This document shows, one piece after another, positions 33,959 to 40,517 of a stretch of 45,797 nt of DNA. Under the pieces are notes generated by a model. The model was not told where the DNA came from, made no database searches, and worked only from the letters and a program-made list of their open reading frames with translations. A program made the position numbers and the translations under genes. Origin of the DNA: a virus; the IMG/VR virus record IMGVR_UViG_3300032157_000375, positions 1-45,797 of that record, one strand, 5' to 3'. The first letter of the stretch is position 1; every line of letters starts with the position of its first letter.

Positions 33959-34168
33959 ATGGAAGCAAGCTCTCCCGATCACGCGTTCCGCCAGCCGGCG
34001 TCGCTCGACGATGCTTTGAAGGGTCTATCAGCCGACCAGGCGCTGGAACTCCAGCTAGTCCAGGACGCGATGGACGCCCGGGTCGACAAGGTACGCGCGG
34101 ACAAAGCCTTCACCGAAGCCCAGGCGAGACTCCTGCAGTTCCGCGCCGAGCAGCAGGAGGCCGCGTGA
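33959..34168 (+). CDS. Small hypothetical first gene of the DGR operon
   Basis: A 69-residue helical, Glu/Gln-rich protein starting MEASSPDHAFRQPAS. It ends EAQARLLQFRAEQQEAA. It overlaps the first target gene by GTGA. Unknown family; likely a coiled-coil partner or a leader peptide gene. Confidence 0.55.
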   Translation: MEASSPDHAFRQPASLDDALKGLSADQALELQLVQDAMDARVDKVRADKAFTEAQARLLQFRAEQQEAA

Positions 34169-34734
34169 GCCGCCCTGCCAAGCGCGCCGGCGTGCGCATC
34201 GAATCGTTCAGCTCCAAGGCGCTGACCCAGCTGAGCGGGCTTCTGGCGCCGACAGCCATCACTCCCGCCCGAACGGTTGCCATAGCGCCAGTCGCACGCT
34301 TCACCAAGGTGAGTGCGGCGGGCGCCCTTCTTCCCGATTCCGCCACCGAGTGGGTTGCCGTCTACGACCGCGAGCAGGACCTGGTTTTCTCCCGCAGCGT
34401 TCTGGACGGAACCCACACCTGGGCGAAGGCGAAGAAAGCTGCGGAGGCCGCGAAGATCTGCGGCGTGACCGGATGGCGCATGCCGACGGTCATGGAGCGT
34501 TTCCGCATTTGCGACCACTCGCGCGTGTATCCGGCACTTCCCATCGAGTACTTCAACGCGGACAGCGGTTGGGAGTGGACATCCACTGTCGACGCTGAGT
34601 CCCCCTCGGACGACGCGTGGAGCGTCGGCCTCAGCTACGGCAATTCCGGTCGGCATCGCCAGGGCTGCGACTATCACGTCCGTGCGGTGCGCGCCGGTCA
34701 GTTATTCGGCTTTTGTACTTCCGGAGAAGCCTGA
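34165..34734 (+). CDS. Variable protein 1 (DUF1566/Lcl-type), DGR target
   Basis: A 189-residue protein starting GTG 34165 (GTGA overlap). From about residue 45 it has a DUF1566/Lcl pattern: AVYDREQDLVFSR, a GTHTWAKAKKAAE helix, TGWRMPTVMERF, then WEWTST and the variable segment (145-178). The fold should be C-type-lectin-like, whose variable surface residues come from template AAC/AAT codons. There is no signal peptide. The C-terminus extends 11 residues after VR1. Confidence 0.88.
   Translation: MSRPAKRAGVRIESFSSKALTQLSGLLAPTAITPARTVAIAPVARFTKVSAAGALLPDSATEWVAVYDREQDLVFSRSVLDGTHTWAKAKKAAEAAKICGVTGWRMPTVMERFRICDHSRVYPALPIEYFNADSGWEWTSTVDAESPSDDAWSVGLSYGNSGRHRQGCDYHVRAVRAGQLFGFCTSGEA
34599..34698 (+). 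repeat. DGR variable repeat VR1
   Basis: A 100-base copy of the template at 38651-38750, with 11 substitutions at template A positions and one at a template T (34612, T to G). The last 24 bases are identical to the template, followed by CAG where the template has GAG. Confidence 0.93.
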
Positions 34735-36454: not shown

Positions 36455-36777
36455 TGCATCCGCTGGCGCCACGCATGAAGAGCGGTGAGCCGTGGCCACG
36501 CCACGTGAACCGCGTGCGGGAGATCCGCCGCCTGGTCTACGAGGAAGGTTTCAAGCTCGTGGTCATCCTCGGCGATCGGGATCAGCCCATCTACCGGCTG
36601 ATGAAGGATGGCGAGATCTCCCCCAGCGGCACGGTGGAAGCGTCGGCGGCGCGCAAGGCGGACCACCAGTACTTCGAGACCGTCGAGAAGCTCGCCGACG
36701 GCACCCAGATCCTTGAGCTCTCAGAGACGAAACGCGCGCAGCGACGCGCGACCCAACATGGAGGTAACTCGCAATGA
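36454..36777 (+). CDS. Hypothetical protein
   Basis: A 107-residue, mixed alpha/beta, Lys/Glu/Arg-rich protein starting MHPLAPRMKSGEPWPRH. TGATG overlap before, ATGA overlap after. No family recognised. Confidence 0.55.
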   Translation: MHPLAPRMKSGEPWPRHVNRVREIRRLVYEEGFKLVVILGDRDQPIYRLMKDGEISPSGTVEASAARKADHQYFETVEKLADGTQILELSETKRAQRRATQHGGNSQ

Positions 36778-36947
36778 TCACCTGGATTCTCGCCCTGCAG
36801 CTCGCCGCCACTCCGACGGTGAAGCCACCGGCCTATCCGTATCCGCCGGCGAACCCCTGCTCGAATCCGTTCAAGTGCGACCGCTACCGGCCGCAGTACT
36901 CGACACCACAGCGACCGCTGCCCTGGAAGGGCGGTCCGCGCAAATAA
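36774..36947 (+). CDS. Small secreted Pro/Tyr-rich protein
   Basis: A 57-residue protein with a short hydrophobic N-terminus (MITWILALQLAATPT) and a Pro/Tyr-rich, two-cysteine mature part (YPYPPANPCSNPFKCDRY). GGAGGT lies 8 bases before the ATG. It is just before variable protein 2. Function unknown. Confidence 0.55.
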   Translation: MITWILALQLAATPTVKPPAYPYPPANPCSNPFKCDRYRPQYSTPQRPLPWKGGPRK

Positions 36948-36963
36948 CCCAAGGGAGATTTCG

Positions 36964-37437
36964 ATGAAGCCCACGTACACGAAGCTCGCGGCCGACGGCA
37001 CTGATCTGCCGGCCGACCACCCGAACGACGGACCCGACAAGCACCTCGCGGTGCGCGTCGATCACCCGCTCCTGAAAGAGCCGCTGATCGTGGCCGCCTA
37101 CCGCGCCGGCACCAGCGTGCAGTGGAAGGACGCGGCGGCCGCGGCCGAGGCGCACCAGGCGTACGGCTGGAAGTGGCGGTTGCCGGCGGTCGAGGAATTG
37201 TTCCTGGTCGCCGATCGCACGAACCCGGCCTGCAAGCTCGATCCGAACTTCTTTCCGGATGCCGAGGGCTGGGAGTGGACCTGGACGGCGACGCCGGATG
37301 CCGAGCTCGAGGAAGACGAAGACGGTGCGCCGTCCCCCTCGGGCTGCGCGTGGGGCGTCAGCCTCAGCTACGGCTATTCCTATCGGCTTCTCCAGGGCTT
37401 CGGCTATCACGTCCGTGCGGTGCGCGCCGGTCAGTAG
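36964..37437 (+). CDS. Variable protein 2, DGR target
   Basis: A 157-residue DUF1566/Lcl-type protein. It has a KDAAAAAEAHQAYGWKWRLP helix-strand pattern, WEWTWTATP, then the variable segment (123-156) which ends the protein with a single Gln. No signal peptide. AAGGGAG lies upstream. It differs from the other two in its N-terminal half but shares the fold. Confidence 0.88.
   Translation: MKPTYTKLAADGTDLPADHPNDGPDKHLAVRVDHPLLKEPLIVAAYRAGTSVQWKDAAAAAEAHQAYGWKWRLPAVEELFLVADRTNPACKLDPNFFPDAEGWEWTWTATPDAELEEDEDGAPSPSGCAWGVSLSYGYSYRLLQGFGYHVRAVRAGQ
37332..37431 (+). repeat. DGR variable repeat VR2
   Basis: A 100-base copy of the template with 15 substitutions, all at template A. It is followed by CAG and the stop codon TAG. 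Confidence 0.93.
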
Positions 37438-37473
37438 ATAGACCATTGTCCGTCACCAATCATCGGAGCTAAC

Positions 37474-38142
37474 ATGAAGAAGAAGTCCACGAAGCGCGCG
37501 AAGGTCGCGGTGCCTGCCGTCCTCGAGTCGGTTGCCCAGCCGCCGGCGATCAACATCACTATCGCGCAAACGTTCGACGCGCGCGGCGCCGCCGAAGGCC
37601 TGATCGACCAGCTGCCCGGGATCCTGCAGGCGGCGAATGAGAACCTGCGGGCCGAGCTCGTCGAGCGCCTGCGTACGGCGTCGATCGCCAAGGTGGTTCC
37701 GCCGAAGTCCGCCGTCGCCGTGCGCTTCTGCAAGGTGGCGAGCGATGGCCGCGCGCTGCCAGCGAGCGCCAGCGACTGGGAAGGCGTCTACGACGCGACG
37801 ACTGGTCTCATCTGGGGCCGGCGGTTGCTCGCCGGCGAACGGAACTGGAAAGACGCCGTGAAGGCCGCCGGCGAAGCGACGCTCTGCGGCGCGCCTGCGC
37901 GCGCACCCACCATTCAGGAGCGGTTGTCGATCGTCGACTACCAGCGCGTTGAACCGGCGCTGGACGTCACGTTCTTCGACCCGAAGGAGACCTCGGCGTG
38001 GGAATGGACCTCGACGCCTGCCGCGTCCCCCTCGGACTACGCGTGGTTCGTCAACCTCAGCGGCGGCTATTCCTATCGGTATCTCCAGAGCTCCGCCTAT
38101 CACGTCCGTGCGGTGCGCGCCGGTCAGCCCATCGGACTTTGA
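37474..38142 (+). CDS. Variable protein 3, DGR target
   Basis: A 222-residue protein, basic N-terminus (MKKKSTKRAKVA), a helical region to about residue 90, then the DUF1566/Lcl core (GVYDATTGLIWGRRLL, KDAVKAAGEAT, PTIQERLSIVDY, WEWTST) and the variable segment (184-217). It is closest to variable protein 1. GGAG lies upstream of its ATG. No signal peptide. Confidence 0.88.
   Translation: MKKKSTKRAKVAVPAVLESVAQPPAINITIAQTFDARGAAEGLIDQLPGILQAANENLRAELVERLRTASIAKVVPPKSAVAVRFCKVASDGRALPASASDWEGVYDATTGLIWGRRLLAGERNWKDAVKAAGEATLCGAPARAPTIQERLSIVDYQRVEPALDVTFFDPKETSAWEWTSTPAASPSDYAWFVNLSGGYSYRYLQSSAYHVRAVRAGQPIGL
38025..38124 (+). repeat. DGR variable repeat VR3
   Basis: A 100-base copy of the template with 11 substitutions, all at template A. 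It is followed by CAG, then CCCATCGG. Confidence 0.93.
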
Positions 38143-38157
38143 CCCAAGAGCGAAGCC

Positions 38158-38595
38158 GTGAAGTGTGAACTACCGCAAATCGTGAAAGACGCGCAGCGCG
38201 CAAGGGCCGCCATCGAGCAGGCCTTCACACGCATGGCGCGTCGGCACAAGTACTCGACCGGCGTGGATCTTCGCAGCGCGGCGAAGGGGGTCGTGCTCGT
38301 TGCGCTTCGCGCGTGGCGGGATCCCGCCGGTCGACTCGATCGCGTGCGCCAGCTGTGCGAAGCGGTGGACGCTCTCAAGGTGGATCTGCAGCTCGGCAAG
38401 GATGTCGACGCCTTCCGTAGCTTCCGTGAGTTTGAGGCGATCGTGCGCCTCGTCGACGAAGTGGGCCGGCAGAGTGGAGGCTGGCTGAAACGACTGCTAC
38501 CGAAGGGCCAGGATGCCCGGGCTGATCATCCGCCTGCGCAGCGTGCCCCGATACTGAGTTCCCGATCCGCCTCACGCGCTGGGGCAACACCATGA
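38158..38595 (+). CDS. avd: Avd-like DGR accessory protein
   Basis: A 145-residue protein, GTG 38158, of the four-helix-bundle Avd type, with the region LQLGKDVDAFRSFREFEAIV and DEVGRQSGGWLKRL near residues 80-117. Avd forms a pentamer that binds the reverse transcriptase and template RNA and is needed for mutagenic cDNA synthesis. The last 30 residues are low-complexity. Its stop overlaps the RT start by ATGA. Confidence 0.85.
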   Translation: MKCELPQIVKDAQRARAAIEQAFTRMARRHKYSTGVDLRSAAKGVVLVALRAWRDPAGRLDRVRQLCEAVDALKVDLQLGKDVDAFRSFREFEAIVRLVDEVGRQSGGWLKRLLPKGQDARADHPPAQRAPILSSRSASRAGATP

Positions 38596-39872
38596 CGATG
38601 CCGCGCTACCTCGGATGTGCGGCAGGGTCCGAAGTGATCGGGATAGCGCCGTCCCCCTCGGACTACGCGTGGAACGTCAACCTCAGCAACGGCAATTCCA
38701 ATCGGAATCACCAGAGCTACGACAATCACGTCCGTGCGGTGCGCGCCGGTGAGTGTCACGGTGCGGTCTCGTTACGCAGCCTCTACTCTGCCTGGCGCCA
38801 GGCGCGCCGCGGGAAGAAGCCGAGCCTGGACCAGATGCTGTTCGAGGCCCGGTGGGTCGACGAGCTCCTGGACATCCAGCGCCGCCTGAACGGCCTGCAC
38901 TGGTACCCCATGGCGCCCACGTGCTTCATCGCCCTGGCGCCGAAGGCCCGCGAGATCCACGCGCCGCGCTTCGCGGACCGGGTTGTTCACCATCTCATCG
39001 TTCCCGAGCTCGAGCGGGTGTTCGAGCCGAAGTTCATCCACGACAGCTATTCGAACCGGGTCGGCAAAGGAACGCACGCGGCCGTCGCGCGCCTGCGGCA
39101 GTTCATTCGCCAGGTCGAGTCCGGCCAGGGTGGTGGCTACTACCTGCAGCTCGACATCCGTAACTTCTTCGCCAGCATCCATCGGCCAACGCTCTGGTCG
39201 CTTCTCAAGCCGCGCATGGAGCGCGCCGCCATCTCACTCCCTGTCAGGAAGGCGGTGCATGCGCTTTTGACCTGGCCGATCCAGCGGACCGGCGTCGTGT
39301 GGGCCTGCGACCAAGCTGAGCGCGAGGCCGTGCCGGCGCACAAGCGGTTGGAGAACTCCCCGCCCGGCTGCGGCATTGCCATCGGCAATCTCTCATCCCA
39401 GTTCTTCGCGAACGTCTATCTCGATCGGCTCGATCAATTCGTGAAGCATGAGCTTCGAGCGGCGCGGTACGTCCGCTACGTCGATGACTTCGTGCTGGTG
39501 CACCATGACCGCCGGCAGCTGGAGGTCTGGCACGAGGCGATCGCCGCGTTCCTCGAGCGAGAGCTGCGGCTTGAGCTCAAGGCCGACGTGAAGCTCAGGA
39601 CGCTCGCCGACGGCATCGACTTCCTCGGCTACGTGCTCTTCCCCTCTCACGTCGTCACTCGCCGGCGGGTCATTGGCCATTGCCGCGCGAAGCTCGCCGC
39701 CTGGGAGCGCACGCATTGTCACGCTGGCCACATCACGGAGAGCCGCAAGGCGCTGGAGGCGGTGCGCTCGATCTGGTCGAGCTACTCGGGTCACTTCGCG
39801 CATGCGAGCAGTTTCAAGCTGCGTCTCGACATCTACCGCAGGTTTCCCTGGCTCTCGCGGGTGATGGCATGA
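38592..39872 (+). CDS. DGR reverse transcriptase with in-frame template repeat
   Basis: A 426-residue frame. The RT part is from about residue 57. Catalytic motifs: YLQLDIRNFF with D188, the DGR motif IGNLSSQ at 264-270 ([ILV]GxxxSQ) and YVDD at 296-299. The enzyme copies template RNA with errors at A. Residues 20-53 are the template repeat itself in the same phase as the targets. No ATG is in frame after the template; a GTG at about residue 50 is possible. Start at 38592 is chosen from its ATGA overlap with avd. Confidence 0.9.
   Translation: MTMPRYLGCAAGSEVIGIAPSPSDYAWNVNLSNGNSNRNHQSYDNHVRAVRAGECHGAVSLRSLYSAWRQARRGKKPSLDQMLFEARWVDELLDIQRRLNGLHWYPMAPTCFIALAPKAREIHAPRFADRVVHHLIVPELERVFEPKFIHDSYSNRVGKGTHAAVARLRQFIRQVESGQGGGYYLQLDIRNFFASIHRPTLWSLLKPRMERAAISLPVRKAVHALLTWPIQRTGVVWACDQAEREAVPAHKRLENSPPGCGIAIGNLSSQFFANVYLDRLDQFVKHELRAARYVRYVDDFVLVHHDRRQLEVWHEAIAAFLERELRLELKADVKLRTLADGIDFLGYVLFPSHVVTRRRVIGHCRAKLAAWERTHCHAGHITESRKALEAVRSIWSSYSGHFAHASSFKLRLDIYRRFPWLSRVMA
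38651..38750 (+). repeat. DGR template repeat TR
   Basis: The 100-base template matching VR1-VR3. It has 23 A; only three (A of the first AGC, A of CAG, A of the last CAC) are unchanged in all three copies. Seven Asn codons (AAC/AAT) give the greatest diversity. The 3' end is GC-rich and A-free (24 bases), ending GGT, then GAG, whereas the VRs have CAG; this is the likely IMH* against IMH difference. Confidence 0.93.
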
Positions 39873-40311
39873 GCCCGATCCGCCCCGAGAACCTCGACCG
39901 CTATCCGTCCGACTGGGCGGAGATCCGCGCGCGGATCCAGCAGCGGGCGAAGAACTGCGCGAGTTCTGCAAGGTCCGGAACTGGGCGATCGGCGGGCGCA
40001 CCAAGGATGGGAACTTCGTGCCGCTGTTCCAGCCGCACGAGGATCCCGCGGCCGCGCGCGACAGCATCGGCAAGGTTGCCTGGTGTGGTGCCTCTGGGCC
40101 GATCGAACTGCTGCGCATCATCCGGATCGTCTGCACGGTCGCGCACCTCGACCACGTGCCCGAGAACTGCGACGAGGCGAACCTTCGATTCCTCTGCCAG
40201 CGCTGCCACCTGCATTACGACAGGCAGCATCACGCCGAGACCGCCTATGCGTCGCGGCGTGAAGGCAAGGCGGCTTCTGATCTCTTCGAAGACGAGGTCA
40301 CGGCTGCATGA
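39869..40311 (+). pseudogene. HNH endonuclease gene with a frameshift
   Basis: The ATG at 39869 overlaps the RT stop. The frame MSPIRPENLDRYPSDW... then breaks at about 39956-39960, where a shift of one frame restores CEFC-like and later HNH: HLDHVPENCDEANLRFLC, CHLHYDR. This is the common phage HNH protein. Either a 1-base deletion or a 2-base insertion explains it. Could be a sequencing error, mutation or programmed shift; no slippery site is evident. Confidence 0.8.
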
Positions 40312-40517
40312 AGCGATACGAAGACGTCATCGAGAGCCGTTGGGCGCCACACCTGCAGCCTCTGGGGTTGGCTGAGCCACCCATGTGGATCTGGGCGCAA
40401 TACCGCTGGCGCTGGTCAGCCAAGCTTGCTGCGCTTTTGTTCAACGCCAGTCCGGCCAGAGGCATGAATACTCTAGCCATCTCATGCGCTTACTGGCGGC
40501 GGATCGAACGCGCATGA
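40308..40517 (+). CDS. Small hypothetical protein
   Basis: A 69-residue Trp-rich basic protein starting MKRYEDVIESRWAPHL. ATGA overlaps on both sides. No family. Confidence 0.55.
   Translation: MKRYEDVIESRWAPHLQPLGLAEPPMWIWAQYRWRWSAKLAALLFNASPARGMNTLAISCAYWRRIERA

Follow-up and report, generated by a model that had tools for sequence, protein, structure and literature searches.

An RT gene whose reading frame probably runs, in translation, through its own template repeat in a clade of phage and prophage DGRs

The window, by which we mean the whole stretch of DNA that was analysed, is a complete IMG/VR virus record of 45,797 bases that carries a diversity-generating retroelement (DGR). The order of its parts is three Lcl_C (DUF1566) target genes with variable repeats (VRs) at their 3' ends, then avd, the template repeat (TR) and the reverse transcriptase (RT). 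The features used below are as follows.

34593 to 34718, + strand: VR1, at the C-terminus of the Lcl_C target ORF 34165-34734, from the repeat search; the coordinates are those of the 126-nt repeat copy
37326 to 37451, + strand: VR2, at the C-terminus of the Lcl_C target ORF 36964-37437, from the repeat search
38019 to 38144, + strand: VR3, at the C-terminus of the Lcl_C target ORF 37474-38142, from the repeat search
38158 to 38595, + strand: avd (accessory variability determinant), sited between VR3 and the TR, from profile matches
38581 to 38584, + strand: Shine-Dalgarno-like GGGG, 8 nt 5' of the RT ATG; GGGGC/GAGGC is conserved in relatives
38592 to 39872, + strand: RT ORF of 426 aa (Pfam RVT_1, E 6.1e-16) with a putative N-terminal extension that would include the translated TR
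38600 to 38623, + strand: covarying RNA hairpin, stem 38600-38606 with 38617-38623, within RT codons 3-11 and 5' of the TR
about 38646 to 38755, + strand: TR, defined by its similarity to the VRs; the RT frame is in the VR phase and mismatches lie mostly at TR adenines
38749 to 38758, + strand: GTGAGTGTCA element at the TR 3' end, near-invariant columns in the clade alignment
38772 (about) to 39869, + strand: conserved RT core, its start placed by alignment and HMM

Several features assign this cassette to the DGRs. The RT sequence contains YVDD and IGNLSSQ, and the SQ of the latter we take as a mark of DGR RTs. The best PDB match of the RT alignment profile is RT 8ub7 (E 8.8e-54), and Foldseek likewise places the RT model closest to 8ub7_A, titled DGR RT (E 2.3e-23); 8ub7 is presumably the BPP-1 complex. 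The gene beside RT has the Avd families as its best matches (NCBIfam DivGenRetAVD, E 5.4e-8; Pfam bAvd, E 1.2e-4), both under the curated cut-offs. The three target ORFs are C-type-lectin-like and score, from VR1 to VR3, 61.6, 45.5 and 71 bits for Pfam Lcl_C (cut-off 34.9). Over a fixed 112-nt stretch the mismatches between the TR and the three VRs fall at TR adenines in 12 of 19, 16 of 19 and 12 of 18 cases, and in trimmed alignments in 11 of 13 (VR1) and 15 of 16 (VR2). What the window would hold of mutagenic retrohoming is its footprint, these adenine-specific differences. It is like the DGR of Bordetella phage BPP-1, which has VR, avd, TR and RT in the same order on one strand, the RT fold that gives the best structural match, and adenine-biased mismatches between TR and VR (18 of 22). 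On the 3' side of RT lies a further ORF, 39869-40311, which when read by eye is split between two frames near 39960, possibly by a frameshift or as a pseudogene; it resembles an HNH-type endonuclease.

Relatives were collected by three viral scans and one genome scan, which gave at least 276 loci in addition to the window. The alignment profile used for two of the scans spans the N-terminal extension, and its DNA patterns sit in the core. All 277 of 277 loci contain the RT core, and a comparison over its first 600 nt leaves 205 distinct ones. A TR is detectable at most 1,000 nt upstream in 190 of the 205 and not in the other 15, and an iterated profile detects avd in 195 of the 205 distinct loci searched. 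The clade containing the window was delimited by a core-profile score of at least 460 and has, among the loci listed, 104 members with a TR; the group boundaries (core-profile scores 460, 310 and 246) were chosen after viewing the scores. Six more loci score as clade members with the TR not detected. In four of them (L057, L118, L061 and L166) the sequence ends on the 5' side, and in the other two (L068 and L074) an in-frame ATGAC start is present. A tree of the 190 cores places no outside locus within the clade; the clade node has a support of 0.089 and the node uniting the clade with L227 a support of 1.0. Genome contigs contribute 23 of the 104 clade loci, by their titles mostly from Stenotrophomonas, Xanthomonas, Pseudoxanthomonas, Lysobacter, Luteimonas, Dyella, Rhodanobacter and their kin. 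Clade-wide, 2783 of 3040 TR-VR mismatches are at A (206 alignments, among the loci listed). Of the 257 that are not, 206 are a single site, where the TR has GTGAG (38749-38753) and the VR has GTCAG, a G>C difference found in 206 of 206 clade alignments and presumably an IMH*/IMH-like mark at a fixed place.

An earlier note, made from the letters of this DNA, had proposed that the RT frame opens at an ATG overlapping avd and spans the whole template, and this stands. The ORF 38592-39872 begins with an ATG that overlaps the avd stop TGA (38593-38595) as ATGA (38592-38595), and it crosses the entire TR uninterrupted by a stop. Read in this frame, the TR gives ...SDYAWNVNLSNGNSNRNHQSYDNHVRAVRAGE, which matches VR3 in the VR frame, ...SDYAWFVNLSGGYSYRYLQSSAYHVRAVRAGQ. 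Before the core the frame offers an ATG, GTG or TTG at 38592, 38598, 38634 and 38739 only, the last of these within the TR, and the next in-frame start after GTG 38739 is ATG 38835, already in the core; thus, whichever usable start serves, RT would include some or all of the TR. We considered the openness of the frame as proof of translation and rejected it, because brt of BPP-1 is likewise open upstream through its separate TR; openness is thus weak evidence.

The start codon is more telling. No stop closes the RT frame across the TR in any of the distinct clade loci with a TR (104 of 104 among the loci listed), and in 101 of the 103 clade loci with avd an ATG (98) or GTG (3) in the RT frame overlaps the avd stop as ATGA or GTGA; the two exceptions are L124, which has an indel in the leader between start and TR, and L066, which contains N bases. 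The distance from this start to the core takes 22 different values in the 101 loci, every one divisible by 3, although the start codon was sought in the RT frame, so that the informative part is its presence there in 101 of 103. Stops in the leader number 0 in the RT frame vs 23 and 14 in the other two frames (101 loci). In the clade the avd-overlapping start has a mean Shine-Dalgarno duplex energy of -7.36, against -2.68 at control positions (p=1.5e-47); the window's own value of -4.7 is moderate and below the clade mean strength.

Further evidence comes from paired frameshifts. Taking the VR frame from the longest ORF proved ambiguous in this GC-rich DNA, and we replaced it by setting the VR phase with an iterated Lcl_C profile of the target domain. 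By this measure 97 of the 104 clade loci read the TR uniquely in the VR phase, five (L010, L076, L069, L212 and L086) read it in the +1 phase, where it is still open, and the call is mixed for L071 and none for L066. The agreement of RT and VR phase that the earlier note saw thus holds in the window, but it is not a requirement, as these five relatives demonstrate. Each of them has a one-base change before or at the TR 5' edge and a second on the 3' side that offsets it, which keeps the RT core in frame with the avd-coupled start; their nearest relatives, among the loci listed, have the normal phase or, for L076 and L086, different indels. This is the pattern that continuous translation requires. 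Sorted by side, five loci have shifts on both sides, 2 in the leader only, 0 in the spacer only and 97 in neither (Fisher p=2.3e-7; the four counts were compiled by hand, with L124 and L066 counted as leader-only). The same note had held that stops or frameshifts between TR and RT in relatives, or an RT that starts after the TR, would speak against its reading. Within the clade there are no such stops, and all frameshifts beside the TR are compensated save the indels between the ATGA start and the TR in L124 and L066. In DGRs further removed from the clade, RT does start within the TR or beyond it. Taken across the relatives, the pattern of start, frame and indels is far beyond chance.

The substitutions in the extension are consistent with this. 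The leader has a pN/pS of 0.51 in the RT frame vs 1.50 and 1.03 in the other frames for 140 ungapped pairs, and 0.64 vs 1.35 and 1.10 for 372 pairs. A lower value of 0.29 came from a protein-guided alignment and is optimistic, and the ungapped values are preferred. In 47 independent closest pairs the share of differences at third positions is 0.388 in the leader (p=0.007), 0.395 in the TR and 0.433 in the spacer (p=0.002), and 0.53-0.57 in the RT core; in 24 ungapped pairs of equal length the leader signal has p=0.07. Together, the frame-specific pN/pS and the low third-position share suggest an extension that is translated yet weakly constrained as protein. AlphaFold, run with 63 clade sequences, predicts the first 54 residues to be disordered, all of them but residue 9 having a pLDDT below 50, and gives the RT core, residues about 58-426, a pLDDT mostly above 85.

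Given these results we consider it very probable that RT is translated through its own template from the avd-overlapping start, with an extension of about 60 residues. A ribosome ending avd would initiate RT at the overlapping ATG (ATGA), which has its own Shine-Dalgarno site, and would then move across the hairpin region, through all of the TR and over a spacer of about 17 nt into the RT core. The RT protein, presumably made at its full extended length, would carry about 60 extra N-terminal residues that are largely template-encoded and predicted to be disordered, and the identical RNA stretch would still template the adenine-mutagenic cDNA.

Two further observations concern the RNA on either side of the TR. 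On its 5' side the hairpin at 38600-38623 has 93.3% of its cells paired in 55 clade sequences, drawn from the 101 with the junction. Its covariation is 0.472 vs 0.151 in shuffles (0 of 500), and slid versions reach at most 0.115. A covariance model built from 50 sequences recovers the hairpin in 18 of the 21 clade loci outside the training set, the three misses being contigs truncated within the TR or core. In 86 loci from outside the clade no score of the model exceeds 20.8 bits. Weak matches lie 5' of the TR in the sister loci L230, L244, L233, L224, L227, L234 and L236, where the stem sequences are different and still pair. The RT frame does not extend to the sister hairpin in six of the seven; in L236 it opens immediately 3' of the match. 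These sister hairpins occupy the same place as that of the clade and have a CTACC...GGaTG-like internal motif. The hairpin may thus be an older element of the template RNA, over which the clade would have shifted its RT start upstream. It is most likely part of the template RNA recognised by RT-Avd, or a point at which RT-Avd stops.

The 3' side of the TR differs from that of BPP-1. About 17 nt separate the TR end from the core in the window, and 3-32 nt do so in the 101 loci analysed, in contrast to the 144 nt between TR and brt in BPP-1, a spacer that according to the accessible text of the source is a structured element recruiting bRT-Avd and priming cDNA (PMC12875486). The BPP-1-like layout with a non-coding structured spacer between TR and RT is thus not what the window has, and no counterpart of the spacer is visible 3' of the TR in its clade. 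One could imagine such a spacer hidden in the RT coding sequence. Whole-region consensus folding and sliding-window alifold, however, found the 5' hairpin alone; sliding-window alifold saw no conserved RNA fold over the 330 nt with which the RT core begins, synonymous variability showed no depression of synonymous sites in the 5' RT core, and Rfam had no match within 36500-40500.

What the translated extension is for may be answered in several ways: as a passenger, through autoregulation or through action in cis. The five loci with a shifted TR phase indicate that the TR peptide can vary in sequence with little restriction, and we favour the peptide as a tolerated passenger of the template. 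One alternative is that translation through the TR is regulatory, with RT-Avd bound to the hairpin or TR blocking its own translation, or with nascent RT acting in cis on the mRNA that encodes it. A single RNA carries the start codon, the covarying hairpin and the TR within a stretch of about 165 nt, and since the structured downstream spacer was not found, the recognition elements may sit at the translation start. On the other hand, the sister loci carry the hairpin 5' of the TR and outside the RT frame, which implies that the hairpin predates the translated arrangement, and we regard the regulatory reading as unlikely. A wider proposal of this kind is that messenger and template have merged in a large DGR clade: RT would be made only by translating its own template, template recognition would have moved from the downstream spacer to the 5' hairpin, and RT-Avd would compete with ribosomes, limiting the mutator by feedback or favouring action in cis. 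We put this forward tentatively, and doubt rather than expect that it holds.

A second alternative gives the extension a function as protein, for example as a lectin-fragment tail with Avd, RNA or the target protein as its binding partner, and with its amino-acid sequence under selection. MTxPRY and the next residues are alike across the clade, the leader and TR both have pN/pS below 1 in the RT frame, and the TR phase is uniquely that of the VR in most loci, as given above. However, in the five shifted loci the phase of the TR and of some of the leader is a different one and would yield unrelated peptides, the codon signal of the leader is weak, and the hairpin, the Shine-Dalgarno/ATGA junction and the template function account for the conserved nucleotides. 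Given the shifted loci and the disorder predicted by AlphaFold, selection on the amino-acid sequence of the TR peptide is unsupported, and we judge a functional extension to be improbable.

A third alternative is that RT starts at GTG 38739 in the TR or at a non-standard codon after it, with the frame upstream open only incidentally, as the VR must be free of stops and the genome is GC-rich. It can appeal to that GTG being in frame, to brt of BPP-1, which is open through its TR and not translated there, to the clade TRs, of which 102 of 102 lack stops in the VR phase and 81 of 102 lack them in the +1 phase, and to outside relatives that clearly use starts inside or after the TR, but we hold it highly improbable because 11 of 101 loci have no in-frame ATG, GTG or TTG between TR start and core start (92 of 101 have no ATG), the 203 in-frame start codons in TR and spacer show no Shine-Dalgarno signal (mean duplex energy -2.93), the avd-overlapping start is near-universal, the leader pN/pS is frame-specific, and the compensated frameshifts straddling the TR would have no reason under it. 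Of the two possibilities that the earlier note had left side by side, the template-derived N-terminus is thus the one retained, and the internal GTG is set aside in favour of translation from the avd-overlapping start.

Other DGRs start RT in different ways. Among other ARRANGEMENTS, DGRs with the TR far upstream use an ordinary start after the TR with a strong Shine-Dalgarno site (e.g. L037 and L042). In L173, L176, L177, L178 and L183 the RT ATG and a Shine-Dalgarno-like AAGGA are both inside the TR, so that the template bears the RT translation start. A second RT group (profile score 246-310, 59 loci) has its leader open in the RT frame in 45 of 59 loci vs 1 and 7 in the other frames, and its leader pN/pS of 0.85 vs 0.90 and 0.97 does not demonstrate translation by that test. 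A subset, L027, L032, L033, L038, L039, L198 and L265, has strong Shine-Dalgarno sites 5' of the TR, about 264 nt before the RT core, with the TR mostly in the +1 phase, and may from these sequence signals be a second read-through lineage. In the clade itself, L064 (start-codon region 5001) is the lone locus without a separate avd. Its Avd is fused in frame to RT through the TR, the frame being open for 642 nt upstream of the RT core, which could be a natural Avd-TR-RT fusion or else a sequencing frameshift.

The arrangement as such has precedents, a point on which the earlier note needs correction. Overlap of the TR with the 5' end of the annotated RT ORF, as found in the window, is structural group 3 of DiGReF, a group that rests on annotated ORFs and for which the accessible part of the paper states neither frame, start codon nor selection (PMC3521204). 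For the Pseudoalteromonas phages ACA1/ACA2, a 2023 paper describes in one sentence a TR translated as an N-terminal extension of RT, and its accessible text holds no comparative test and no hairpin (PMC10612066). As in the window, the annotated RT start of ACA1/ACA2 overlaps the avd stop by 4 nt. Their RT is distant from that of the window (32.4% identity) and their TR ends 141 nt before the RT core, unlike the about 17 nt here, so the arrangement may have arisen more than once. In our literature search, neither a comparative test of translation nor compensating frameshifts nor a hairpin on the 5' side of the TR turned up. The new elements are the comparative proof of translation, the hairpin and the apparent loss of the spacer, in a variation on a known system that one sentence on another lineage had anticipated.

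By comparative sequence, a mutagenesis template would double as coding sequence in a widespread group of phage and prophage DGRs, and the evolution of the template would thereby be bound by a reading-frame rule. As a candidate element for recognition or stopping there is the 5' hairpin, in a DGR group that appears to dispense with the structured spacer to which the priming of cDNA has been ascribed. The RT start sites annotated for such DGRs would often be wrong. In the named phage records (L282-L287) the annotated RT starts are inconsistent relative to the TR: the start lies before the TR in ACA1, phiARM81mr and Magia, inside it in Cruim01, after it in Haboob and inside the core in LPPA56.
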